A DNA stretch of 9,666 nucleotides from Clostridiales bacterium (lineage in GTDB: Bacteria > Bacillota_A > Clostridia > Oscillospirales > Oscillospiraceae). The notes under the pieces were generated by a model. The model saw only the letters and a list, made by a program, of their open reading frames with translations, had not been told where the DNA came from and did no database searches. The stretch covers positions 1 through 9,666 of the forward strand of contig DXUR01000075.1 of assembly GCA_019417795.1 (NCBI GenBank), given 5' to 3'. The position numbers and the translations under genes were made by a program. This document shows, one piece after another, positions 167 through 9,666 of this stretch (within the stretch, counting starts at the first letter, position 1; each line of letters begins with the position of its first letter).

Positions 167-189
167 ACAGGAGCGTGGCACGCTCCTGT
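167..189. repeat. 23-bp near-perfect palindrome after the 84-residue gene
   Basis: Two 11-bp arms, 167-177 (ACAGGAGCGTG) and 179-189 (CACGCTCCTGT), are exact reverse complements around a single central base. The right arm ends on the stop codon of the 189-443 gene. No T-run follows on either strand, so it is not a standard intrinsic terminator. It could be a cruciform, an mRNA 3'-end hairpin or part of a transfer origin. Confidence 0.7.
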
Positions 190-443
190 CACAGCTCCCA
201 CGGAGGAACAGTCCAACGATAGCTCTGCGGAACGCCGCGCCGGTCAAGATATTCCTGCCGTGCCTGTTCGCGTTCTTCCTCAGTCGGTGCCGTTTTGTAC
301 CGGGAATAGAGTTGCCGGTTCAGCATGGCGTCGAGCTTCTGCTCCAAGCCCCGACAGATTTCATCTTCGTATTCATCCTCGCCCCGCAGATGGTACATGG
401 CGAGGTCGAGGAACAGACCATAGGGGATTTGCACAGTTTTCAT
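189..443 (-). CDS. 84-residue charged protein of mobilizable elements (complexin-2-like in databases)
   Basis: The product is 84 residues, mostly charged and helical. It begins MKTVQIPYGLFLDLAMYHL and has a motif TAPTEEEREQARQEYLDRRG at about residues 51-70. I recognise this small family from clostridial mobilizable elements, where automated annotation often uses the misleading name complexin-2. Its function is not established. The start is supported by AAAGGAG at 453-459, 9 nt upstream of the ATG. It lies 96 bp downstream of the ATPase gene, across the mirrored 9-bp arrays, and is probably the next gene of the same operon. There is no signal peptide or membrane segment. A DNA-binding or relaxosome accessory role is a guess from context only. 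Confidence 0.8.
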   Translation of the reverse strand: MKTVQIPYGLFLDLAMYHLRGEDEYEDEICRGLEQKLDAMLNRQLYSRYKTAPTEEEREQARQEYLDRRGVPQSYRWTVPPWEL

Positions 444-461
444 GTTACTTCGCTCCTTTCC

Positions 462-535
462 GCGACGGTCGCAACGATTGCGACGGTTGTTTTGGCGGTA
501 TCAGATTTACCGTTGCAACCGTTGCAGCCGTCGCG
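462..535. repeat. Mirrored arrays of 9-bp repeats after the first ATPase gene
   Basis: Left array 462-488 is three adjacent 9-mers (GCGACGGTC, GCAACGATT, GCGACGGTT). Right array 509-535 is three adjacent 9-mers of the opposite sense (ACCGTTGCA twice, then GCCGTCGCG). The arrays are imperfect reverse complements separated by a 20-bp spacer. They lie 4 bp past the ATPase stop codon and fill most of the gap before the next gene. An equivalent structure with different sequence follows the second ATPase at 8740-8823. They could be iterons, an origin, or a long RNA hairpin. Confidence 0.75.
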
Positions 536-539
536 CGGC

Positions 540-1712
540 TTATTTGCTTTCAGTATCATAGGTCAGCGTGATGCGCCGCCCCTCGTGCCGAACTTTGTTC
601 TCATAACGGATATGGTATTCATCCAGAAGTCTGCCGGACTTGACATTCAGATACTTGCTCAGGGCGTTTGCCGCCATACCGACATGGACGGCATCGGCAA
701 GCGCAGAGGGCGAGCCTGTCCATACCGGCTGTTCTGCGGACACCAGCCTTGAAACGGATTCCAGAACATGATCGGGCGGCTCTTTGTGCAGCTCGTTTTC
801 CACCTTTTCGAGATTCCAGATCTGCGTATCGGCATCCTTTTTCAGATAGAGAATCTGATCCTGCTGATCCCGTCCCACCACATCAATGGTAGCTTCCAGC
901 GCCGTGCGCTTTTTCTTCTGCATAAGTAGGGAGCCGTCGGCACAACCCAGCAATCCCGTCGTACCGGAGATCATTTCAAAGCTATCGCCTGCGGGCTGCT
1001 TTCTTGTGTGATGGACGGTCAGAACACAGATGCAGTGCTTGTCGGCAAACTGCTTGAGCTTGCCGATGATCTCATAATCACTGGCGTAGCTGTATGCCTC
1101 GCCGCCGATTTCCCGGATTTTCTGCATGGTGTCAATGATAATGAGTCTGGTGTCTGGATGTTCCCGCACGAAGTTCTCAAGCTGCTCGTCCAGCCCGTTT
1201 CCAATCTTGCCCGCAGCGGTTGCAAAGTGCAGCCGGTCGGTGTCGTTGACGCCGTACATCATGAACATACGGCTCTGGATGCGCTGAAAATCATCTTCCA
1301 AAGCGAGGTACAGCACCGTACCGGGATGGACTTCGCAGCCCCACAGAGCTTCGCCCGTGCTGACATGATAGGCGATCTGCGCCACCAGAAATGATTTGCC
1401 GATCTTCGGCGCGCCTGCGAGGATGTACGCGCCTGCGTAGAGCAAGCCGTCGATGATCGGCGGTCTGCTCTGATATGCGGTCTGGTACAGCTCGGTCATG
1501 GAGATCGTGTGCAGGTAATGCGGATCGGTCAACCGCTGCATCCTGTGGTAGATTTCGTCCAGACTTTCCGTGCTGTTTTGAAAATCACCGTTGATTTCTC
1601 CCTCAAAAGCGGATATACTGTTCTCAGTTGAATTGTGAAGCGGCTGCCCATCATCTGCGCCAACAGATGTGTCCGGGGCGGTCGTTTTCTTTTTGCAGAG
1701 TTCATTCTCCAT
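540..1712 (-). CDS. RepA-like P-loop ATPase (AAA_25/RecA-fold helicase family)
   Basis: This 390-residue protein has a Walker A motif GAPKIGKS at about residues 100-107, a Walker B LIIID at 190-194 and a VHHTRK motif at 233-238. That pattern matches RecA-fold ATPases of the AAA_25 group, including RSF1010 RepA-type hexameric helicases. The first 90 residues are polar and low in conservation signals. The last 80 look like a small winged-helix-type domain. I chose the ATG at 1710-1712 rather than the one at 1716-1718, because AAGGAGG (1722-1728) is 9 nt from the former and only 3 nt from the latter. The start overlaps the stop of the MobC-like gene by 11 bp, implying coupled translation. The homologue at 8819-9666 shares most motifs. 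The role is presumably DNA unwinding during element replication or mobilization. The family call is firm but the biological role is inferred. Confidence 0.88.
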   Translation of the reverse strand: MENELCKKKTTAPDTSVGADDGQPLHNSTENSISAFEGEINGDFQNSTESLDEIYHRMQRLTDPHYLHTISMTELYQTAYQSRPPIIDGLLYAGAYILAGAPKIGKSFLVAQIAYHVSTGEALWGCEVHPGTVLYLALEDDFQRIQSRMFMMYGVNDTDRLHFATAAGKIGNGLDEQLENFVREHPDTRLIIIDTMQKIREIGGEAYSYASDYEIIGKLKQFADKHCICVLTVHHTRKQPAGDSFEMISGTTGLLGCADGSLLMQKKKRTALEATIDVVGRDQQDQILYLKKDADTQIWNLEKVENELHKEPPDHVLESVSRLVSAEQPVWTGSPSALADAVHVGMAANALSKYLNVKSGRLLDEYHIRYENKVRHEGRRITLTYDTESK

Positions 1713-2034
1713 AGGCATTTTCCTCCTTCATGCCGTCCATGATGGCGGCGATCATTTCAATCACATCCAGCAGCTCGTCATTTATGCCGCCCGCTTCAAT
1801 GCGTCGCAGCTCGTCCAGCACGGCGGCAAGCTGGTCACGCAGTGCCTTGTAAACTCTCGGATTGCCCTGCACCACCACGTCCTTGCCAGTCAAACGGCGG
1901 GTGATGTAGTCCTGTTTGGTCAGCCCGGAAAGCTTGACAAAGGTTTCAATTTGCCGGTCCTCCTCCGGCGATACCCGGAAGGCAACAGTCTTGTTGCGCC
2001 AGCGGTTGTGGTTGTCTCGGTTTTTCAGTGACAT
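1702..2034 (-). CDS. MobC-like ribbon-helix-helix mobilization protein
   Basis: The product is 110 residues. Residues about 12-50 (RWRNKTVAFRVSPEEDRQIE and the following GLTKQDYITRRL) have the strand-helix-helix pattern of ribbon-helix-helix proteins, as in MobC-type relaxosome accessory factors that bind near oriT and help the relaxase. The remainder is helical and probably mediates oligomerization. The start is clear: AAAGGAG at 2043-2049 lies 8 nt upstream of the ATG, inside the integrase 3' end. Only one base separates the integrase TAA from this ATG, and its own 3' end overlaps the ATPase start. Its place between integrase and ATPase couples integration and mobilization genes in one transcript. 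It could instead be an autoregulator. Confidence 0.8.
   Translation of the reverse strand: MSLKNRDNHNRWRNKTVAFRVSPEEDRQIETFVKLSGLTKQDYITRRLTGKDVVVQGNPRVYKALRDQLAAVLDELRRIEAGGINDELLDVIEMIAAIMDGMKEENAYGE
1722..1728 (-). promoter_or_regulatory. Ribosome binding site for the first ATPase
   Basis: AAGGAGG lies within the last codons of the MobC-like gene. It sits 9 nt from the ATG at 1710-1712 and only 3 nt from the ATG at 1716-1718, which favours the downstream start and translational coupling. Confidence 0.7.
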
Positions 2035-2035
2035 T

Positions 2036-3109
2036 TTAATTGCTCCTTTCGACGTTCAATTTATCTGCCATTTCCTTCTGCACAGTTGGGAACAGATGCG
2101 CGTACCGATAGGTGATCTCCACACTTTCGTGTCCCACACGATTGCCGATGGCAACGGCGGAATAGCCCATGTTGATAAGTAAAGAAACGTGGCTGTGTCT
2201 CAAATCGTGGATTCTAATGACCTTGACACCAGACGCCTTGCATCCAAACGCCATCCCACGCTTTAAGGTGTGCTTGGTCAGAGGGAAGATGCGGCTGTCC
2301 GGTTCCAGTCCGTAAAGCTGCTTGAAATAGTCCTGCATCTCGTCACAGAGGAAGTCAGGCATCTGGATTACGCGATTGCTTTTCTTCGTTTTCGGCGTGG
2401 TGATAACGTCCTTACCCTGTAAGCGCTGATAGGATTTATTGATGCGGAGCGTTTTCTTCTCAAAATCGAAGTCCGCAGGCGTCAGTGCCAGCAGCTCGCC
2501 CTCGCGGATGCCACACCAGTACAGGATTTCAAAGGCGTAGTACAGCATGGGCTTGTCCATCATGGCGTCGATGAATTTGAGGTATTCTTCCTTCGTCCAG
2601 AACAGCATTTCCTTCGGCTGCTCGCTGCCCATATTTCCGGCCTTTGCAGCGGGATTGATCTGCAAGCCGTAATACTTGATGGCGTGGTTGAAAATACAGC
2701 TCAGTTGGGTATGGACGTTCTTGAGATAGTCCGGGGAATAGCTTTCGCCGCTTGACTTGGTGTGCTGCCGTATCTCGTTCTGCCAGTCGATCACATCACG
2801 GGCGGTGATTTCCGAGAGCTTGCGCTTTTTGAAATACGGCAGAATCTTTGTGCGGATGATATGCTCCTTGCTGAGCCATGTGTTGAGCTTCAGCTTGGGC
2901 TTGACGTCCTTTTCATAGAGCGCCACAAAGCTCTCGAAGCTCATATTGACATCAGCCTGCTTCTGCATCAGAAACTCGCGTTCCCATGCCTGAGCCTCTT
3001 TCTTGGTCGCAAAACCGCGCTTTAATTTCTGCTGGCGCTCACCGCGCCAGTCGGTATAGCGAAACTGCACATACCATGAGCCGTTCTTCTTGTCCTTAAA
3101 CGCTGCCAT
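2036..3109 (-). CDS. int: Tyrosine recombinase (phage/ICE-type integrase)
   Basis: The product is 357 residues from the ATG at 3107-3109 (beginning MAAFKDKKNGSWYVQF). Residues 1-50 resemble the arm-binding domain of Tn916/phage integrases, about 55-150 the SAM-like core-binding domain, and 165-350 the catalytic domain. Visible catalytic residues are Arg202 (CGIREGELLAL), a likely Lys near 242-244, His301 and Arg304 (HDLRHSHVSL), His327 (VGHESVE) and the nucleophile Tyr336 (ITYRYAHL). All are intact, so the enzyme should be active. It would insert and excise the element at an attachment site. An AAGGGA lies 5 nt before the chosen start. The frame is open further upstream, but that part overlaps xis. 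The first 14 bp overlap the end of xis, and the MobC-like gene starts 1 bp after its stop. Confidence 0.95.
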   Translation of the reverse strand: MAAFKDKKNGSWYVQFRYTDWRGERQQKLKRGFATKKEAQAWEREFLMQKQADVNMSFESFVALYEKDVKPKLKLNTWLSKEHIIRTKILPYFKKRKLSEITARDVIDWQNEIRQHTKSSGESYSPDYLKNVHTQLSCIFNHAIKYYGLQINPAAKAGNMGSEQPKEMLFWTKEEYLKFIDAMMDKPMLYYAFEILYWCGIREGELLALTPADFDFEKKTLRINKSYQRLQGKDVITTPKTKKSNRVIQMPDFLCDEMQDYFKQLYGLEPDSRIFPLTKHTLKRGMAFGCKASGVKVIRIHDLRHSHVSLLINMGYSAVAIGNRVGHESVEITYRYAHLFPTVQKEMADKLNVERSN

Positions 3110-3293
3110 TCGATTCCCTTCTTTCCTTCGGTTCTCTCGTTCCGTAGAACTTCTCATGGAAGAACTTGCGGTCGATCCTGCCTGCAATGGTGATGCAGCC
3201 GGTCTTTCGCAGCTCTTTGTTCAACTCACGAATGAGCTTATACGCATACGGAACCGATACGCCAAGCTCTTCCGCAACTTCATTTACTCTCAT
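3096..3293 (-). CDS. xis: Excisionase-like winged helix-turn-helix protein
   Basis: The product is 65 residues. It starts MRVNEVAEELGVSVPYAYKL, the N-terminal helix-turn-helix signature of MerR/AlpA-like excisionases and small DNA-binding proteins. The basic C-terminal half includes ITIAGRIDRKFFHEKFYG. Excisionases bend DNA at the element ends and steer the integrase toward excision. The ATG at 3291-3293 was chosen because AGGAGA (3301-3306) is 7 nt upstream, and because it forms an ATGA overlap with the stop of the preceding 69-residue ORF. An in-frame ATG at 3309-3311 is possible but has a poorer ribosome site. Its end overlaps the integrase start by 14 bp, consistent with coupled expression. 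Confidence 0.85.
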   Translation of the reverse strand: MRVNEVAEELGVSVPYAYKLIRELNKELRKTGCITIAGRIDRKFFHEKFYGTREPKERRESNGSV

Positions 3294-3499
3294 AAAAATT
3301 TCTCCTGCCATAGGCAAAATACCTTCCTTTCCTGATTTGTGGTTGATTGCTTCGCCGTTCTATCCGCAGGACTCTGACAGGCAACCCTTTTCGGCGCTGT
3401 GCCGTTTTCTTTTCTCCTTGGCACGCTCATTTCATCGCCTGCTTCCCCGGAGAAAGTATCCCTTGGACGGTCATTCAGTTTGGCTCTTTTGGATTTCAC
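3290..3499 (-). CDS. Small basic hypothetical protein upstream of xis
   Basis: This is a 69-codon ORF with a GTG start, beginning MKSKRAKLNDRPRDTFSGEA. It is rich in Lys, Arg and polar residues with no recognisable domain or membrane segment. Its stop overlaps the xis start as ATGA, the best argument that it is translated and coupled to xis. A purine-rich AAGGTGAGAGG stretch just upstream could serve as ribosome site. It lies first in the integrase operon, where small recombination directionality or leader proteins are often found. I do not recognise the family. It could also be a translated leader with only a regulatory role. Confidence 0.5.
   Translation of the reverse strand: MKSKRAKLNDRPRDTFSGEAGDEMSVPRRKENGTAPKRVACQSPADRTAKQSTTNQERKVFCLWQEKFL
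3301..3306 (-). promoter_or_regulatory. Ribosome binding site fixing the xis start
   Basis: AGGAGA lies 7 nt before the ATG at 3291-3293. It selects this start over the in-frame ATG 18 bp upstream, and it lies inside the coding end of the preceding small ORF. Confidence 0.65.
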
Positions 3500-3570
3500 C
3501 CCCCTCTCACCTTACAACGGACATTTTTTCTGCATTTGTTGACTATCCTAATTGTAAAATTTATATGAAT

Positions 3571-3586
3571 TAAGCTTATATGCTTA
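3571..3586. promoter_or_regulatory. Possible operator palindrome in the divergent intergenic region
   Basis: TAAGC-TTATAT-GCTTA is a 5-bp inverted repeat around an AT core. The sequence TGCTTAG at 3581-3587 recurs at 3656-3662, just upstream of the regulator promoter. The location between the regulator and the int operon fits an operator for the Cro/CI-type protein. Support is positional only. Confidence 0.3.
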
Positions 3587-3596
3587 GCTTGCAGAT

Positions 3597-3625
3597 GTTG
3601 TACTATACATATTAGTTTAAGTCAA
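3597..3625 (-). promoter_or_regulatory. Candidate promoter for the xis-int-mob operon
   Basis: On the minus strand TTGACT (3620-3625) and TACAAC (3597-3602) are separated by exactly 17 bp in an AT-rich stretch. It would leave a leader of roughly 90 nt before the 69-residue ORF. The -10 hexamer matches consensus at only four of six positions, so the call is tentative. Confidence 0.4.
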
Positions 3626-3669
3626 GCTGGTTTGCAGGAAAATATTAAATAAATTTGCTTAGGTTCTTC

Positions 3670-3698
3670 TTGACGGAATTAAACATATCTGCTATACT
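3670..3698 (+). promoter_or_regulatory. Sigma70-type promoter of the Cro/CI-type regulator
   Basis: TTGACG (3670-3675) and TATACT (3693-3698) are separated by 17 bp, a near-consensus vegetative promoter. Transcription would begin about 30 nt before the regulator start codon. Confidence 0.8.
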
Positions 3699-3720
3699 CA
3701 TTATCAAAGACAACCGACAC

Positions 3721-3725
3721 AGGAG
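3721..3725 (+). promoter_or_regulatory. Ribosome binding site deciding the regulator start
   Basis: AGGAG abuts the in-frame ATG at 3726 with no spacing, but sits 9 nt before the ATG at 3735. The latter is therefore the likely start. Confidence 0.7.
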
Positions 3726-3734
3726 ATGGCTATT

Positions 3735-4265
3735 ATGGCGATTGGTGAACGCATCCACTTTTTCCGCACGATGCGGGGCATGACGCAAAAATATCTTGGC
3801 ATGGCGCTGGGCTTCCCGGAGAAGTCTGCCGATGTGCGCCTTGCGCAGTACGAGAATGGCTCCAGAACGCCCAAAGCGGACGTGACCGCTGCGCTGGCAC
3901 AGGTGCTTGACGTTTCGCCCAAGGCGCTGGACGTACCGGACATTGACTCCTATACAGGGCTGATGCACACGCTGTTTACGCTGGAGGACCGCTACGGTCT
4001 TGAGGTCTGCGAGTGTGAGGATGAGGTACATCTGCGCGTTCATATCCACAAAGGGCGCGACGCAGCAGAACTTCACAGGATGCTTGCCGCATGGGGTGCA
4101 GTTGCCACCAAACTGAAAGCAGGCGAGATCACCAAAGAAGAATACGACCGCTGGCGCTACCGCTACCCTGAACTTGACACCTCCGGTCAGTGGCACAAGA
4201 TCACGCCGTCGCAGGAGCTGAGTGACCTGCTCCTTGCTGATCTCAAGGAACACACCGAAGAATAA
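3735..4265 (+). CDS. Cro/CI-type (XRE) helix-turn-helix transcriptional regulator
   Basis: The product is 176 residues. Residues about 3-60 form a Cro/CI helix-turn-helix domain: an ERIHFFRTMRGMTQKYLG opening, then LAQYENGSRTPK as recognition and flanking helix, and an ALAQVLDVSPKAL ending. The C-terminal 110 residues are charged and lack the S24 peptidase motif, so cleavage-type induction is unlikely. It is transcribed divergently from the small ORF-xis-int-mob operon and is the only convincing plus-strand gene, the usual layout of a repressor controlling excision and transfer. Its strong promoter is at 3670-3698 and a terminator follows at once. Its target operators are not proven. Confidence 0.9.
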   Translation: MAIGERIHFFRTMRGMTQKYLGMALGFPEKSADVRLAQYENGSRTPKADVTAALAQVLDVSPKALDVPDIDSYTGLMHTLFTLEDRYGLEVCECEDEVHLRVHIHKGRDAAELHRMLAAWGAVATKLKAGEITKEEYDRWRYRYPELDTSGQWHKITPSQELSDLLLADLKEHTEE

Positions 4266-4266
4266 C

Positions 4267-4314
4267 AAAAGGCTCTGCCGACCTTCTTTTACAGAAAGTC
4301 AGCAGAGCCTTTTT
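4267..4314. terminator. Bidirectional intrinsic terminator after the regulator
   Basis: Arms GGCTCTGC (4271-4278) and GCAGAGCC (4302-4309) form a GC-rich stem. TTTTT (4310-4314) follows on the plus strand, and an A-run at 4267-4270 gives a T-run on the minus strand. The stem can extend into the A/T flanks. It begins one base after the regulator stop codon and also insulates the regulator from minus-strand transcription out of the tet side. Confidence 0.9.
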
Positions 4315-4338
4315 CGCTCTCAATATAGGATTGAATGC

Positions 4339-4418
4339 GATAGCAAACCTGCAAACCATTCGCTCGCCAAAACAAGAACAAACAAAATGGCTTTAGTATC
4401 TGCTATCATTTTGCTATC
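4339..4418. repeat. Inverted and direct GCTATCA-type repeats near the element end
   Basis: GATAGCAAA (4339-4347) is the exact reverse complement of TTTGCTATC (4410-4418), and TGCTATCATT / TTGCTATCAA form a close direct pair at 4401-4420. Short spaced repeats like these are typical integrase arm-type sites close to an attachment site. The rest of 4315-4484 shows no credible gene. Confidence 0.45.
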
Positions 4419-4488
4419 AAACAGGAAATGAGATTTTCAAAAAGTAAGTGTTTTCAAGGCTTTGCAGCCCCTCATATTCACTTTTTTC

Positions 4489-4500
4489 TCATTCCCACTC
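4489..4500 (-). other. Possible attachment-site core (guaA 3'-end-like)
   Basis: On the minus strand GAGTGGGAATGA encodes Glu-Trp-Glu-stop, the C-terminal end typical of GMP synthase (GTIEWE). The 3' end of guaA is a known integration hotspot for genomic islands. The bases upstream do not encode the rest of guaA, so if this is an att core it is an internal element-element junction or attP-like remnant. No second copy is visible in the window. Confidence 0.35.
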
Positions 4501-4536
4501 GTTGTTGGGCATCATATTTAACGGATTTTGCTTCAT
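4489..4536 (-). CDS. Possible 15-codon mini-ORF downstream of tet(W)
   Basis: The ORF reads MKQNPLNMMPNNEWE. It overlaps as ATGA the stop of a 14-codon ORF (4533-4577, MDTSNNQKNEVSNL), with a GAGGT stretch 9 nt before its ATG. It ends exactly in the guaA-like core. It may be the truncated start of a gene cut at the junction, or chance. Nothing recognised. Confidence 0.2.
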   Translation of the reverse strand: MKQNPLNMMPNNEWE

Positions 4537-4583
4537 AAATTTGATACCTCATTTTTTTGATTATTTGATGTGTCCATATTATC

Positions 4584-4631
4584 CAGCCCTATACGATGGG
4601 CTGTTATCAAATTGTTATCGGTGGTGATAAC
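4584..4631. repeat. Two small hairpins downstream of tet(W)
   Basis: CAGCCC (4584-4589) pairs with GGGCTG (4598-4603), and GTTATC (4614-4619) pairs with GATAAC (4626-4631). Neither is followed by a T-run in the minus direction, so they are weak terminator candidates for tet(W). Apart from these, the mini-ORFs and the promoter-like pair at 4676-4704, the stretch 4501-4726 holds nothing I can support. Confidence 0.35.
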
Positions 4632-4675
4632 GGGGGGTAGCAGGGTTGTTGTTTTCTCTGGTGGTTTACAACTAC

Positions 4676-4704
4676 ATTTTACCACGAAAGGCAGGGAAAT
4701 GCAA
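4676..4704 (-). promoter_or_regulatory. Orphan promoter-like pair downstream of tet(W)
   Basis: On the minus strand TTGCAT (4699-4704) and TAAAAT (4676-4681) are spaced by 17 bp. It would drive transcription toward the mini-ORFs and the putative attachment core. No clear gene lies downstream, so it may belong to a gene removed at the junction. Confidence 0.45.
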
Positions 4705-4726
4705 TAACCATCCTTGCTGTGGCGTA

Positions 4727-6646
4727 TCAAGGAATCTTACTGAACATATGGCGCACCTTATCCAAACGGCTGTTTGGACGACGGGGCTGGATGATTGGCT
4801 CGCCGACAGTGGCCTGATACCCTTTCAGTTCCGTCAGGCACACACTCCGCCCGTTGGTGTAAAAGGCCAAATCAGTACGGTATGCCTGTATGCAACGGGC
4901 GGGAATCTCGCCAGTAAAGACAACTTCATCCTTTTTTATCTGGGCCGTTTCGATGGTGGCACAGTATTTCGGCGCATCATGATAAGCCCTGGAAAGGTAT
5001 TCCTGGGGCGCATAGAGGGTGAAGGAGAGATAAGGTTCCAGCAACTGCGTCCCAGATTTCTTCAATGCCTGTTCCAATACAATCGGGGCCAATGAGCGGA
5101 AGTCCGCCGGCGTACTGACCGGGCTATAGTAAAGTCCGTATTCAAAGCAAATCTTACAGTCCGTTACGTTCCAGCCACACAAGCCTTGCCCCAAACCGTA
5201 ACGGATACCATCCATGACAGCGTTTTGAAAACTCTGGTTCAGGTATCCCAGGGAAACCCGGCTCTCGTATTTTACACCGGAGCCAAGCGGGAGCGGTGTA
5301 ACAGACAGTCCGATAGATGCCCAAAACGGGTTAGGCGGCACCTCGATATGGATGGTGTGACTGGCCACTTTGAGCGGCCGCTCTAAATAAATGACGGTGG
5401 GTTCCTTCACTGCTGTTTCAATCTTGTATTTTTCCGTCAGCAAAGCGGAAACAACCTCCAACTGCATCCGACCCAAAAAAGAAAGAATGATCTCATGGGT
5501 GGTGGAATCCACCTCGTAGTGCAAAAGCGGGTCAGTATCCGCAATTTGCGTAAGAGCGTCCAGCAACCGGTCTCTTTGCTCTGCCGTTTTTGGCGTAATC
5601 GTCGTCCGCAGCATAGGGAAGGGAACATCACTCCACATTTCACGAGGAAGTTGGGTTTTGTCCCCCAATATATCGTTTAATCTCAAGCTGTCGCTGGGAA
5701 GGATGACAATTTCGCCCTTATGGGCGGTATCTGTCCGAACAATCTCCCCTTTGGATGGAATACGCATCTCTGTGATTTTCAGCTTTTCTCTCCCGGCCAG
5801 GGCCACCGTATCCCGCAGACGCAGCGTTCCGCTGTATAGCCGCAGATAGACAAGCCTCTGGCCGCAATCTGTATACTCCACCTTAAAAACTCTACCGCAC
5901 AGGGCGGCGCTCCCCTGTTCCTTGGTCGATTGGAACAGCCCTATCACCGCATCCATCAACTGTTGAATGCCAAGGCCGTTTTTGGCGCTACCATGATAGA
6001 CCGGGAGCAGGGAGGCGTCTTGAACTCGCCGCTGTTCTTCTTGCGCAAGTTCTTTCTGACTGATTGATTCTCCTGCGATATACTTTGCCAATAACTCATC
6101 GTTATTTTCGATGACCGAATCCCACACCTCTGCACTAGTGTTTTCTGTCAGAGTTATTTTCGAGGACAGCGACACTGTCTGCTTGATGATAATATCAGCG
6201 GAGAGCTTATCCCGAACAGACTGATATACGCTCTCCAAATCAATGCCAACCTGGTCGATCTTGTTGATAAAGATAATGGTGGGGATGTTCAATTTCCGTA
6301 GGGCATGGAACAGAACACGGGTCTGGGCCTGCACGCCATCTTTAGCGGAGAGCACCAAGATGGCCCCGTCCAAAACAGCCAGAGAGCGGTATACCTCTGC
6401 CAAGAAATCCATGTGGCCGGGAGTATCCACAATATTGACTTTACAACTGTGCCACTGGAAAGAAGTGACTGCCGTTTGAATGGTAATTCCACGCTGCCGC
6501 TCCAAAAACATAGTGTCCGTTCTCGTTGTCCCTTTTTCGACGCTCCCCGGCTCTGAAATGGTTCCGCTGGCATACAGCAGGCTTTCTGTCAGTGTCGTCT
6601 TGCCCGCATCTACATGGGCAAGAATCCCGATATTGATAATGTTCAT
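4727..6646 (-). CDS. tet(W): Tetracycline resistance ribosomal protection protein, Tet(W) type
   Basis: This is a 639-residue EF-G-like GTPase that binds the ribosome and releases tetracycline. The G-domain motifs are intact: AHVDAGKT (residues 10-17), DTPGH (about 74-78) and NKID (about 128-131). The domain IV loop [11 protein letters not shown], which in Tet(M)/Tet(O) reaches the drug site, is present at about 504-514. Length equals that of classical Tet(W). Compared with Tet(W) as I remember it, roughly one residue in eight to nine differs. Differences cluster around residues 132-237, and the C-terminus is FSKIP. Tet(W) is still the nearest class I can name. The ATG at 6644-6646 is chosen over an upstream in-frame start because GGAGG (6653-6657) is 6 nt away and the family begins MxIINIG. 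Expression is probably attenuated through the leader at 6679-6887. Confidence 0.95.
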
Positions 6647-6678
6647 GTCTATCCTCCATACAAGGCCCAAAAGGGCGC

Positions 6679-6716
6679 AAAAATCCCCAGCGGCAAATAC
6701 TTTTACCGCTGGGGAT
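6679..6716 (-). terminator. Second leader hairpin, terminator-like, just before tet(W)
   Basis: ATCCCCAGCGG (6683-6693) and CCGCTGGGGAT (6706-6716) are perfect 11-bp reverse complements around a 12-nt loop. TTTTT follows on the minus strand at 6679-6683. It lies between the leader ORFs and the tet(W) ribosome site, so transcripts must read through it. Confidence 0.8.
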
Positions 6717-6754
6717 CATGACTTCGGATACATAGAAACGCATTCAGCTAACAT
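6716..6754 (-). CDS. Possible second leader ORF, 12 codons
   Basis: MLAECVSMYPKS ends on the first base of the second terminator-like hairpin. The position suits ribosome-controlled folding of that hairpin, but the ribosome site (GGATAACGG) is poor, so translation is doubtful. Confidence 0.25.
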   Translation of the reverse strand: MLAECVSMYPKS

Positions 6755-6774
6755 GAGCCGTTATCCGTCACGAT

Positions 6775-6875
6775 ATTTGATAAAAAGGCAAAAGCATTCT
6801 TAAATTGGGTACAAAAACCAAGCCCCTGCAAGGGGCAATTATTTTTGTGCCCATTATCAAATTTTATTTAAGAAT
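6775..6875 (-). promoter_or_regulatory. Transcription attenuator in the tet(W) leader
   Basis: Nested arms are visible. 6866-6875 pairs with 6796-6805 (ATTTAAGAAT and ATTCTTAAAT on the plus strand). 6842-6852 pairs with 6807-6817 (one mismatch). An inner GCCCCT/AGGGGC hairpin spans 6822-6836. On the minus strand a T-rich run follows the outer arm. A competing pair, 6854-6862 with 6775-6783 (TTATCAAAT and ATTTGATAA), would use bases of that T-run and break the outer stem. The outer arm overlaps the leader peptide codons, so a ribosome stalled there would prevent terminator formation. Leader attenuation is established for tet(M). Here it is inferred from sequence. Confidence 0.75.
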
Positions 6876-6887
6876 ACCTTGCCGCAT
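6864..6887 (-). CDS. tet(W) leader peptide MRQGILK
   Basis: A 7-codon ORF lies 10 nt after GAGGAG (6898-6903) and about 25 nt after the expected transcription start. Its last codons form one arm (6866-6875) of the attenuator stem, which is the arrangement expected of a drug-sensing leader. Confidence 0.65.
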   Translation of the reverse strand: MRQGILK

Positions 6888-6919
6888 GTTGAATAGACTC
6901 CTCAAATCAGGATGACAGC

Positions 6920-6948
6920 AGTATAGCATAGCACACTCTAAAATGCAA
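6920..6948 (-). promoter_or_regulatory. Sigma70-type promoter of tet(W)
   Basis: On the minus strand TTGCAT (6943-6948) and TATACT (6920-6925) are separated by exactly 17 bp. Start of transcription near 6912 gives a leader of about 265 nt containing the leader peptide and both hairpins. Confidence 0.88.
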
Positions 6949-6973
6949 GAAGTTTTTACCCGCTGTCCCAAAT

Positions 6974-7010
6974 AAATCAGGAGGGCATTCACCGGGACAC
7001 CCTCCGATTT
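6974..7010. terminator. Terminator-like stem between tnpV remnant and tet(W) promoter
   Basis: AAATC-a-GGAGGG (6974-6985) pairs with CCCTCC-GATTT (7000-7010), with one bulged base. TGTCCC (6964-6969) and GGGACA (6994-6999) offer a competing pairing. The T-run on the minus side is short, so termination of mob transcripts here would be weak. Confidence 0.45.
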
Positions 7011-7016
7011 GGGGCC

Positions 7017-7131
7017 TCATGCGCAAATAATTTCTGTGTCCACGATTTCCGCCGCACACGCCCGAATATTGTTAGTCCCTCTGCAACTCATACCACAGAC
7101 CGTTGCCCTCGTCAAAGATGTACTTTTCCAT
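7017..7131 (-). pseudogene. tnpV: Internally deleted tnpV remnant
   Basis: The ATG at 7129-7131 follows GGAGG (7139-7143) at 7 nt spacing and encodes MEKYIFDEGNGLWYELQRD before a TAA at 7072-7074. This matches the N-terminus of TnpV, a small protein first described in Tn4451-type clostridial transposons, as I remember it. Shifted by one frame and starting inside that TAA, NNIRACAAEIVDTEIICA runs to a TGA at 7017-7019. It resembles the TnpV C-terminus. The middle of the gene, roughly 80-90 codons, is missing, and the two ends are joined out of frame. The remnant sits between the relaxase and tet(W), the usual place of tnpV beside cargo genes in such elements. A 19-residue peptide may still be made. 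Identification rests on memory of the family, not on a search. Confidence 0.75.
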
Positions 7132-7154
7132 GAAATTACCTCCATTTTTTGTGA

Positions 7155-8498
7155 TTATCGTGCGCCTACCCTTATTTTTGACCTTGCACCCCATTTCTGC
7201 TCCTTTTCGACCTGTTCCTGCTGGTAAGCTGCCTCCAGTATCCTGTCCGCCTGTTCCGGGCCAATGGCCCGTCTGACCCGCTCATAGTCCCTGACTTGCC
7301 CTTTCAAGCCGTCCCTCTCGGCACAAACCTCATAAATCCTGGCTGACAGGGAGCCGTTCTTACTGACCTCACGATCATAGGCGCTCTGCAACCGCTCAAA
7401 CTTGCTCTTGAGGTCGAAGTAGGCCCGGTAGACGGAGCGCAGCACCTTGACGATCTTCTCCCAAAGGGGCTTGGCCTTTTTCTCCCGGTAGGACTTGGCC
7501 GATTCCAGCGGCCCCGCCTCCGGCAGCGTCCGCTCCGGGTCGTCGGAGAAGTCCGCCGCCAGTTTCTCCATGCCCTTGAGCAAGGGCGCTACATCGTCCA
7601 GCTTAGCCCTGGCCTGGGCCGCTTTCTTCTCAGCTGATGCTGCCTCCTTATTCTTTTTGTCGGCCTCAACCTGGGCCAGCGCCGACACCTCTTGAAGCTG
7701 TGCAAGCCGTTCCTGCTCACGCTCCGTCTTGAACTGCGTAACAGTCAAATGTTCTTCGGAACTACCACGTTCCCCACGCTCTACATCGTCATAGCCAGCG
7801 GAGCGCATATGCTCAAAGAAATCATCTTGCAGGACACTGTACGACTTTCGTAGAACGGGTTTGCCCTTAGCTGTGCGTAACGGCTCCCCGGTAGTTTCGT
7901 CCAGAATGGGCTTGGACGCCCACTTCTTGCTCATGCTCACCTGCATGATCGTTTCCTTGACCTTGCCCACCAGGGACTTGTCCTTGCACCGCTTTGTCCA
8001 GCGTATCTCCTTCTCCACTACCGGGATATAAACCACATGGAGGTGGTAGTGGTACACGTCCTCCCCCAGCGCCTCGGACATGGCCCGGTTGCGCTCGTCA
8101 GCGTGCATGACCGCCGACAAAATATACTGCTCTCCGCCCACGATTTTGATTGCGGCTTTATAGGCTTCGGTGTAAAATTGTTTTGCGAAGTCATACCCGC
8201 CGTGATTGTAGAAGTAAGCGGAGTTTACATCAAAGACCAACTCACCGTATCGAAAGGCATCCTCCTTGATGCCACGGGTGGAGATCACGCCGTCGGCCTC
8301 CATTTGAGCAAACATCTCCCGATACCCGGCAGACGGGGTTTTGAAATGGACATTGAGCGGCGTCCGCTCCAGTACAATGTCCTGATTGACATAGGAATCC
8401 TTCTCACGCTCGTTGTGCTGCTGGGTGTTACCGATCTTGGTTTCGGTCAGCCTCATATTTCTTGCGTTGGTACGGTCAATACCGTCGCCTCTCGCCAT
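7155..8498 (-). CDS. MobV/Pre-type relaxase (plasmid recombination/mobilization protein)
   Basis: This is a 447-residue relaxase that would nick oriT and pilot the DNA strand during conjugative mobilization with help from another element's transfer machinery. It begins MARGDGIDRTNARNMRLTET. Motif I (HNERE, then YVNQDI) lies at about residues 28-41. The metal-binding/catalytic motif is split between HADE (132-135) and YHYHLHVVYIPV (149-160), with a longer spacer than in pMV158 MobM. Residues about 255-310 and 350-435 are charged and heptad-like, as in the coiled-coil tails of this family. The ATG at 8496-8498 has AGGAGG 10 nt upstream. A TTG two codons earlier is only 4 nt away and less likely. 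A matching oriT-like region lies about 75 bp upstream. It is related to the TnpZ mobilization proteins of Tn4451-type elements. Confidence 0.92.
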   Translation of the reverse strand: MARGDGIDRTNARNMRLTETKIGNTQQHNEREKDSYVNQDIVLERTPLNVHFKTPSAGYREMFAQMEADGVISTRGIKEDAFRYGELVFDVNSAYFYNHGGYDFAKQFYTEAYKAAIKIVGGEQYILSAVMHADERNRAMSEALGEDVYHYHLHVVYIPVVEKEIRWTKRCKDKSLVGKVKETIMQVSMSKKWASKPILDETTGEPLRTAKGKPVLRKSYSVLQDDFFEHMRSAGYDDVERGERGSSEEHLTVTQFKTEREQERLAQLQEVSALAQVEADKKNKEAASAEKKAAQARAKLDDVAPLLKGMEKLAADFSDDPERTLPEAGPLESAKSYREKKAKPLWEKIVKVLRSVYRAYFDLKSKFERLQSAYDREVSKNGSLSARIYEVCAERDGLKGQVRDYERVRRAIGPEQADRILEAAYQQEQVEKEQKWGARSKIRVGAR

Positions 8499-8508
8499 AG
8501 GCAAAAAT

Positions 8509-8514
8509 CCTCCT
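8509..8514 (-). promoter_or_regulatory. Ribosome binding site of the relaxase
   Basis: AGGAGG sits 10 nt from the ATG at 8498 and 4 nt from the alternative TTG at 8504, favouring the ATG. Confidence 0.7.
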
Positions 8515-8560
8515 GTTTCAGATGTTGGGTTGTTGAAAGAGGACGGGGGTTCGGGGGAGG

Positions 8561-8629
8561 CACTTCCTGCAGGAAGTGTAATAACCCACTATGACACTTT
8601 CATCCCTTCGGTCTGCAAAGTGTCGTGGG
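8561..8629 (-). other. MobV-type origin of transfer (oriT) with predicted nick region
   Basis: On the minus strand CATAGTGGGTTA (8582-8593) resembles the pMV158-type nick region, in which cleavage occurs in TAGTGTG/TTA. It is flanked by AAGTGT/ACACTT arms (8574-8579 and 8594-8599). A competing stem pairs 8585-8600 with 8617-8629 (13 bp, with a 3-nt bulge at 8590-8592). An 18-bp perfect palindrome CACTTCCTGCAGGAAGTG lies at 8561-8578. Overlapping inverted repeats sharing one arm are typical of MobV oriTs, and the site lies just upstream of the relaxase gene. The exact nick is a prediction. Confidence 0.75.
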
Positions 8630-8645
8630 CTCTCCGAGGGGGTGT

Positions 8646-8714
8646 GGGGGCTTTGCCCCCGGCAACTGCGGTTGCCTCCCCCAGCAGGGCCGCCCTTTGA
8701 AAAGGGCACCCTGC
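8646..8714. repeat. Cluster of three GC-rich hairpins between oriT and ATPase
   Basis: GGGGGC/GCCCCC (8646-8660, loop TTT), GGCAAC/GTTGCC (8661-8676, loop TGCG) and a nested stem are adjacent. The nested stem has outer arms 8684-8689 and 8709-8714 and an inner GCCCTTT/AAAGGGC at 8692-8707. None has a T-run. They may structure the intergenic mRNA or the single-stranded transfer DNA. The rest of 8520-8740 outside oriT has no convincing gene. Confidence 0.65.
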
Positions 8715-8739
8715 ACCCCGCCTAAACTTTGCTGCTCCC

Positions 8740-8823
8740 CGTGACAGCCGTGACGACCGTGACGATGTTTCAGACACCGCCGCCACTCTCAAAAAAGCCG
8801 TCACAGCCGTCACGGTCGTCACG
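8740..8823. repeat. Mirrored arrays of 9-bp repeats after the second ATPase gene
   Basis: Left array 8740-8766: CGTGACAGC, CGTGACGAC, CGTGACGAT. Right array 8797-8823: GCCGTCACA, GCCGTCACG, GTCGTCACG. CGTGACGACCGTGACG and CGTCACGGTCGTCACG are exact 16-bp reverse complements. The right array overlaps the ATPase stop codon. The spacer is 30 bp. This is the counterpart of 462-535. Confidence 0.8.
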
Positions 8824-9666
8824 CCTGGGACGGTTCCAGCGTCAGGCTGATACTTCTCCCGGCGTGGCTCCTGCTGTTCTCATAGCGGATGTGGTAGTCT
8901 ATCAGCAGCTTCCCGGCCCGGACGTTTAGCCGCATCGCCAGGGCGTTGGGCTTCATGTCGGTCTGGAGCGCCGCTACCAGCTCGGTGGCCGTACCACCCC
9001 AGGTCGGCTTCTCCGCCGTCACAAGGGCGGCTATGGCCTCCAGCACCGGGTCGGGCGGCTCTGTCCATGCCTCCGTTTCCGTACGCTCCAGCGTCCATAT
9101 CAGCCGTTCCTTGTCCCTGGTAAGATAGAATCGCTGGTCTTGCTGGTCACGCCCGGCCACGTCCAGAACGGCGCTGCCGTCTGTCCGCTTCTCCTTTTGA
9201 AGAAGAAAGGCCCCGTCCGCCGCTCCCAGCAGACCGTTGGTGCCGGAGATCATATCGAATTTGTCATCTGCCTGTTGCTTTCGAGTGTGGTGTACCAGCA
9301 GGAGGCAGACGCCGCAATCATCGGCAAGGCGTTTCAGCTTACCCACCACCTCGTAATCGTTGGCGTAGCTGTACTTATCCCCACCAGGCTCCCGGATTTT
9401 CTGGAGGGTGTCAATGATAATCAGCTTGGTGTTCGGGTGTTCCCGGACGAACTTCTTTAGCTGTTCCTCCAGGCCAACGCCAAGCTGTTTGGCGTAGACC
9501 GCAAAGAGCAGATTGTCGGTGCCCTCTGTGCCGAACATTCGGTATAGCCGCCCCTGCAAGCGGCGGTGGTCGTCCTCCAACGCCAGATAGAGGACAGTCC
9601 CCTTGTGGACAGGGTAGCCCCACAGGGGGAGGCCCATGCTGACATGGTAGGCAAGCTGGGCCATCA
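8819..9666 (-). CDS. RepA-like P-loop ATPase, 5' end beyond the right edge
   Basis: This partial protein of about 282 residues is a clear homologue of the ATPase at 540-1712, aligned throughout. It shares TVLYLALEDD, LIIIDTLQKIREPGG, a Walker B aspartate, LLVHHTRKQ, the MISGTNGLLG loop, GRDQQDQ and a C-terminal DYHIRYENSR region. The Met near the edge corresponds to residue 110 of the other copy, just after Walker A, so roughly 110 N-terminal residues including Walker A lie outside the window. It probably serves as a helicase-like replication or mobilization factor for the element carrying the relaxase and tet(W). Codons are more GC-rich than in the other copy, indicating divergent origin rather than recent duplication. 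The stop codon lies within the right 9-bp array and overlaps as GTGA a 77-codon ORF. Confidence 0.88.
   Translation of the reverse strand, partial: MAQLAYHVSMGLPLWGYPVHKGTVLYLALEDDHRRLQGRLYRMFGTEGTDNLLFAVYAKQLGVGLEEQLKKFVREHPNTKLIIIDTLQKIREPGGDKYSYANDYEVVGKLKRLADDCGVCLLLVHHTRKQQADDKFDMISGTNGLLGAADGAFLLQKEKRTDGSAVLDVAGRDQQDQRFYLTRDKERLIWTLERTETEAWTEPPDPVLEAIAALVTAEKPTWGGTATELVAALQTDMKPNALAMRLNVRAGKLLIDYHIRYENSRSHAGRSISLTLEPSQA

Follow-up and report, generated by a model that had tools for sequence, protein, structure and literature searches.

Mirrored arrays of 9-bp repeats after RepA-like helicase genes as probable replication origins of clostridial mobile elements

The 9,666-nucleotide (nt) stretch of a Clostridiales bacterium analysed here (contig DXUR01000075.1 of assembly GCA_019417795.1; hereafter the window) contains two mobile elements, each of which has one array of short repeats just after a gene for an AAA_25 helicase related to RepA. 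An array consists of three 9-bp units, a spacer and three further units in the opposite sense. We propose that the arrays are iteron clusters of double-stranded DNA, each most likely serving as the origin from which its element replicates, and that each is read by the C-terminal winged helix of the helicase encoded beside it. An earlier note made from the sequence of this DNA (the original prediction) had offered two readings, iterons or an origin for the helicase on the one hand and an RNA hairpin on the other; the former agrees best with what we found.

The arrays and their recurrence beside related helicase genes

The 3+3 mirrored organization is present after both helicase genes as the original prediction had described it, at 462-534 and 8741-8822. 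The arrays and the two genes are laid out as follows.

462-470, 471-479 and 480-488, plus strand: array 1, distal arm, units GCGACGGTC, GCAACGATT and GCGACGGTT
489-507, unstranded: array 1, spacer of 19 nt
526-534, 517-525 and 508-516, minus strand: array 1, proximal arm, three 9-bp units
540-1718, minus strand: W1, AAA_25 RepA-like helicase of 392 aa (Pfam)
residues 317-387 of W1, about 558-770, minus strand: predicted winged helix
8741-8749, 8750-8758 and 8759-8767, plus strand: array 2, distal arm, units GTGACAGCC, GTGACGACC and GTGACGATG
8768-8795, unstranded: array 2, spacer of 28 nt
8814-8822, 8805-8813 and 8796-8804, minus strand: array 2, proximal arm, three 9-bp units
8819-9664, minus strand: W2, second AAA_25 RepA-like helicase, C-terminal 281 aa, the gene running out of the window

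The first unit of array 1 begins 5 nt past the stop codon of W1 (540-542), and that of array 2 overlaps the TGA stop codon of W2 (8819-8821). Counted between whole 9-bp units, the spacer of array 2 falls within the 20-30 bp originally given, but that of array 1 is shorter. The repeats of the two arrays, which had been taken to differ in sequence, turn out to be variants of a shared consensus; the main difference between them is at base 2 (GCGAC versus GTGAC). The pattern GYRACGRYNGYRACGRY has seven exact matches in the window, all of them inside arrays 1 and 2, and none in 200 dinucleotide shuffles. Across the whole window, exact 6-mers that form a chain of three with a step of 8-10 bp occur only in array 2, array 1 being missed because its units vary too much; any such chain occurs in one of 200 resampled windows. 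The best ungapped 26-nt inverted match in the two 300-nt regions reaches 22/26 and 23/26, compared with at most 18 in 60 resamples. Neither the pattern match nor the 6-mer chain detected a further such array in the window.

Scanning genome contigs with W1 yielded 36 loci. Judged by eye, the array directly follows the printed stop codon in 28 of them (L027 being truncated where its contig ends); in six, namely L007 and L009-L013, the reading frame continues beyond the array, and for L033 and L037 no usable gene end was obtained. More distant relatives on plasmids, phages, viral contigs and genomes often have 9-bp-step repeats of another sequence in the same place. To put numbers on this recurrence, we collected 226 genes, of which 223 had at least 200 nt downstream (three were dropped), and grouped them into 109 clusters, with a cut-off of 70% identity across the 250 C-terminal residues. 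The test stretch was the 400 nt around the stop codon, and stretches within and downstream of the gene served as controls; the resulting counts depend on the relatives contained and listed in the collections. In a strict period test (16 of 20 positions identical to the base p positions further on), period 9 was found in 33/109 clusters, versus 1/108 in-gene and 0/107 downstream controls, with 4/109 at period 8, 5/109 at period 10 and 0-1 at the remaining periods from 5 to 15. A word test was based on one 6-mer in at least three copies chained at 8-10 nt around the 3' end of the gene; after removal of three control stretches that could not be used (one in-gene, two downstream), 108 and 107 remained. 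It was passed by 68/109 clusters versus 5/108 in-gene stretches, 1/107 downstream stretches and 0/109 mononucleotide shuffles, and on both strands by 41/109 clusters versus 2, 0 and 0. Other 3-nt spacing bins gave 0-9 clusters, the nine at 17-19 nt representing twice the step. This test was devised after part of the data had already been seen; in a held-out set of 13 fresh clusters, less than 70% identical to all earlier ones, it was passed by 6/13 (5/13 on both strands) versus 0/13 and 0/13 controls.

The mirror symmetry is likewise widespread. A search allowing one mismatch per 6-mer and gaps of up to 80 nt, run without control stretches, identified at least 3+3 mirrored units in 40/109 clusters and exactly 3+3 in 32/109. 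With one array taken per cluster, the unit step is 9 bp in 133 cases, 8 bp in 26 and 10 bp in 17. The gap between the innermost 6-mers ranges from 4 to 80 nt and is 16-35 nt in 25 of the 40 mirrored arrays, 30 of which begin before the stop codon and 10 after it. With regard to an AT-rich melting region beside the repeats, as looked for in iteron origins, the spacer is not strikingly AT-rich (AT fraction 0.48 versus 0.43 in the flanks, p 1.5e-4, and 0.47 in the arms, p 0.99; 37 arrays). The unit sequence differs between lineages while the geometry stays largely constant. The suggestion that selection acts on the architecture is strongly supported, since the 9-bp step, the mirror symmetry and the position recur in distant relatives with other units.

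Individual relatives illustrate both the regularity and its variations. A Tsukamurella plasmid has a 3+3 array immediately after a Prim-Pol/AAA_25 gene, with an inverted match of 24/24. The small plasmid pATHE01 of Caldicellulosiruptor (L257) has six direct 9-bp units at 6502-6555, within its Prim-Pol/AAA_25 gene and just after the segment encoding a Pfam winged-helix match (residues 515-558); they lie 384-437 nt before the gene end and therefore outside the tested stretch. We also considered whether pATHE01 might be pBAS2 and rejected this on the sizes given in PMC3643907 (pBAL 8.3 kb, pBAS2 3.7 kb), so that replication data for pBAS2 do not apply to it. In L083, L084, L055 and L110, arrays lying within the gene give the protein tail a recurring three-residue pattern (GDTGDTGDS, GCTGCTGCT, VPSVP). 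No array was seen at the gene end in Halfpint, Acosta and a Synechocystis plasmid, and a single-sequence scan with L049 returned zero relatives.

Two DNA patterns for mirrored arrays, scanned over viral contigs, approach the same question independently of the helicase query. All five loci found with the TGTCAC pattern have an AAA_25-type tblastn match that touches the array or is no more than about 420 nt away; two of these contigs already belonged to the set of relatives (L192, L201). The GTGACG pattern gave two loci. One (L263) lies on the contig of L066, where the array comes after an AAA_25 gene. In the other (L264), a GGTGACGGT-type 3+3 array at 10757-10848 comes after a 669-aa open reading frame (ORF; 8733-10742) that is phage primase-like, with a PHROG match to a DNA primase family and no Pfam match at 0.01; no AAA_25-type match was found in 11.7 kb. 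Because of this locus, the array layout may reach beyond AAA_25 helicases. The coding tail of the 669-aa ORF also contains GGTGACGGT-type units.

Joint change of the repeat unit and the winged helix

The structural model of W1 has a RecA-type helicase core followed by elements in the order helix-strand-helix-helix-wing (pLDDT 88.3), and its C-terminal part is predicted to be a winged-helix DNA-binding domain. When this domain was compared with solved structures, the origin-binding domain of phage P4 (1ka8) appeared at rank 7 with a non-significant E-value of 0.3.

If this domain reads the array, the two would be expected to change together, and this is what we observe at the sequence level. 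Among Bacillota-type proteins with units counted near the gene end, 47/48 have a clear unit label, and the nature of residue 375 (K/R versus other) agrees with unit base 2 in 43/43 rows. On a tree of the ATPase core, the unit label changes five times, at least three of these changes being forced by well-supported branches, and all five independent pairs for residue 375 and base 2 go in the same direction. L210 (long branch), L033 (no clear label) and rows with identical cores were dropped from the tree and pair comparison; L210, with label T and a residue other than K/R, would have agreed. Close pairs are particularly telling. L030 and L016 are 95% identical in the core and only 50% in the winged helix, and L020 and L008 92% and 48%, the unit being switched in both cases; in L016 and L014, which have the same unit, the values are 94% and 93%. 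Overall, variable winged-helix columns follow the unit more than core columns do (p 2e-5). Of the binders originally proposed, the ATPase, whose C-terminal domain changes with the unit, is thus a likelier candidate than the MobC-like protein.

The same joint change is also compatible with the arrays being operators for the neighbouring operon, bound by the helicase winged helix or another regulator and having no origin function. Array 1 does sit between the helicase gene and the start of the next ORF, and winged-helix domains are frequent in repressors (MarR, PadR and CtsR rows are among the matches). However, the arrays lie after or within the gene end rather than at a promoter, the genes downstream are varied, and the fused helicase core and the Prim-Pol partner indicate replication. 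To our knowledge, symmetric 3+3 arrays are also unusual for operators. We therefore consider this explanation improbable, with a small residual chance of being right.

The second reading of the original prediction was an RNA hairpin in the transcript (for 3' end formation, translation or attenuation control), kept by compensatory change. Both window arrays fold much better than shuffles (z -4.9 and -5.5), but a good RNA fold is uninformative here, as any inverted repeat folds well. A better indicator is the type of arm mismatch, which should be G-U more often than A-C if RNA pairing is maintained. When all 85 arrays are used, so that close relatives enter repeatedly, there is a weak lean of this kind (97 G-U versus 73 A-C type; 29 arrays lean to G-U, 15 to A-C and 41 tie). 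It is gone when one array per cluster is taken: the 55 arrays have 48 G-U and 41 A-C type mismatches (p 0.53) besides 176 transversions, and 15 clusters lean to G-U, 11 to A-C and 29 tie. In addition, L029 and L030 have ATG and GTC variants at non-mate positions of the two arms, and Rfam gave no match in the window at the gathering score. The absence of a clear wobble bias, the start of most mirrored arrays before the stop codon and the dependence of the unit on the helicase winged helix all speak against the hairpin, and we regard it as the least probable of the explanations weighed here. Together, the mismatch pattern, the non-mate variants and the winged-helix co-variation point to protein-DNA recognition. 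As a separate observation, GCGTCG replaces GCGACG as the middle unit of either arm in L047 and L073, which shows that some variation is common to mirror mates.

Two findings weigh against a DNA iteron cluster tied to the helicase. First, some arrays, such as that of L258, have perfectly mirrored mates, including the letters between the cores, as a hairpin would have. Second, absence of arrays after other homologues, or randomly spaced repeats, had been named as grounds for abandoning the idea; repeats at an 8-10 bp step were found in the 68 clusters mentioned above, but the large minority of 41/109 remain below the word-test threshold.

Neighbouring genes and the source of the window

The window has the following further features.

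189-443, minus strand: 84-aa ORF after array 1
1702-2034, minus strand: NikA-like (MobC type) mobilisation protein, upstream neighbour of W1
2036-3112, minus strand: integrase
3096-3290, minus strand: excisionase-like protein
3726-4265, plus strand: helix-turn-helix protein
4727-6646: tet(M)/tet(W)-type ribosomal protection gene
7155-8504, minus strand: Mob_Pre/MobV-type relaxase, downstream of array 2

Such neighbours raise the question of whether the arrays might be sites for the NikA-like MobC protein or for the arm-binding domain of the integrase, that is, an oriT accessory or recombination site. Both proteins are encoded beside W1, the integrase does contain an arm-binding domain, and the relaxase gene follows array 2. 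On the other hand, the array also comes after the helicase gene where the surrounding genes are different (L258), and changes in the unit go with changes in the C-terminal domain of the helicase itself, which makes this possibility very unlikely. The genes after the array differ as well: the 84-aa ORF or the relaxase gene in the window, and in L271 a small ORF, excisionase-like by eye, followed by an integrase gene. The 84-aa ORF has no Pfam or NCBIfam match. Similar small ORFs were noticed by eye after the array in Bacillota relatives, many of them with an MKxVQIPY-like start, the 84-aa ORF being the window's copy. An imperfect inverted repeat at 8684-8714 (GCAGGGCCGCCCTTT / AAAAGGGCACCCTGC), in the interval separating array 2 from the relaxase gene, is a possible part of an oriT.

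Closely related DNA is found elsewhere. The best plasmid record in a megablast search is from Subdoligranulum; it covers 76% of the window at 92.5% identity and is annotated with tet(W). The nearest genome in the comparison (G001) has 82% of the window's sampled words in common and encodes W2 at 100% identity. A longer relative of W2 is located in L043, the Subdoligranulum record, in which the W2-type helicase gene is flanked on both sides by tet(W) copies, two in total.

Known origins and a possible mode of action

Above the Pfam cut-off, W1 and W2 match AAA_25 only and show no D5 or DUF927 helicase domain. They can be placed in the RepA family by their relationship in sequence and fold to RSF1010 RepA, which is also the best solved relative of a profile built from divergent members (A2; E 5e-14). 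A Prim-Pol domain is fused to the AAA_25-type helicase in L257 and L258, and in L271 (G163, judged actinobacterial) a Prim-Pol gene overlaps the start of the AAA_25 gene. The latter resembles the RepPP modules of actinomycete integrative and conjugative elements, in which a Prim-Pol gene is paired with an SCO4618-like gene; the word iteron is absent from the main text of the paper on these modules (PMC3218068). Taken together, these findings are best explained by a helicase that initiates replication and recognises iterons next to the gene encoding it.

The closest functional precedent is provided by staphylococcal elements. The C-terminal domain of SaPI Rep recognises an iteron cluster directly downstream of its own gene, and SCCmec Cch2 probably acts likewise (PMC7581432). 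The window arrays have one trait of this kind of origin, namely several short repeats directly beside the gene for an initiator helicase. The helicases differ, being related to D5 or DUF927 in SaPI and SCCmec (PMC7581432) and of the AAA_25 RecA type here, and the systems are compared by description only; in its accessible portion, that description does not include a fixed 9-bp mirrored 3+3 geometry. A winged-helix domain of the helicase-primase alpha of phage P4, which has a different primase type, binds the origin repeats (PMC4234260). The same role is predicted for the winged helix here. RSF1010, in contrast, uses a separate iteron binder, RepC (PMC4234260), whereas a predicted DNA-binding domain is fused to the helicase in the window. 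A scan of nine window proteins found no RepC-type iteron binder; it did not extend to those portions of the two elements that lie outside the window. In the IncQ1 plasmid pYR11, no chain of three 6-mers at 8-10 bp was detected, either around repA or in the whole record. The best reading is that the arrays would function in the manner of SaPI or P4 origins, the helicase being instead of the RecA type.

A further parallel comes from the archaeal plasmid pRN1. Its replication requires an inverted-repeat region of 100 bp immediately downstream of the replication gene, and this region together with the replication operon is enough; the replication protein contains a C-terminal winged helix, and the authors read the origin as a stem-loop without iteron structure (PMC4234260). 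Measuring from the first base of the stop codon, we found two copies of TGTCCA in this origin, at offsets 59 and 68, and two of TGGACA, at 138 and 147; a shuffled arm shows a repeat of this type in 323/100000 trials (about 0.3%). The mirrored units, the 9-bp step and the position just downstream of the replication gene are like those of the window arrays; the helicase is of the D5 type, the arrangement is 2+2 rather than 3+3, and it is one case. Phage BIP-1/BPP-1 is said to have a similar stem-loop (PMC4234260), but the expected 9-bp array after the primase gene was not found there. As for the arrays themselves, no description turned up in the open-licence literature among the matches listed (titles and starts of abstracts), which is weak evidence of absence from print.

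How such an origin might operate can be pictured from its geometry. Several helicase subunits would bind the 9-bp units through their C-terminal winged helices, and through the mirrored halves, helicase rings facing opposite ways would be loaded on the two sides of the spacer. The spacer between the loaded rings would then be opened, enabling the excised or transferred element to replicate. The binding of the helicase, the loading of two rings, the opening of the strands and the origin activity itself are what we infer; what the sequences show is the geometry of the arrays, its recurrence, its link to the helicase gene and the fact that unit and winged helix change in step.

A bolder generalization is conceivable, though we would consider it rather doubtful. 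The mirrored 9-bp-step array, mostly 3+3, could be a general geometric code for loading two opposed rings that is common to unrelated initiator helicases: AAA_25 (in Bacillota and actinobacterial-type mobile elements, phages and plasmids), the uncharacterised phage primase-like family of L264 and the D5-type helicase of archaeal pRN1 (2+2), whose 'stem-loop' would then be a mirrored iteron pair. Specificity would switch by joint exchange of winged helix and array, creating new compatible replicons. The main reading, that the arrays are iteron origins read by the helicase, would for its part provide a sequence rule for locating replication origins in many mobile elements, phages and plasmids, including the carriers of tetracycline resistance in gut bacteria. 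It would also make self-loading of a helicase without a separate loader testable, since the number of half-sites, their step and their mirror symmetry would predict the number and polarity of the rings. Finally, the exchange of domain and array as a pair suggests that replicon specificity and compatibility follow a natural code.

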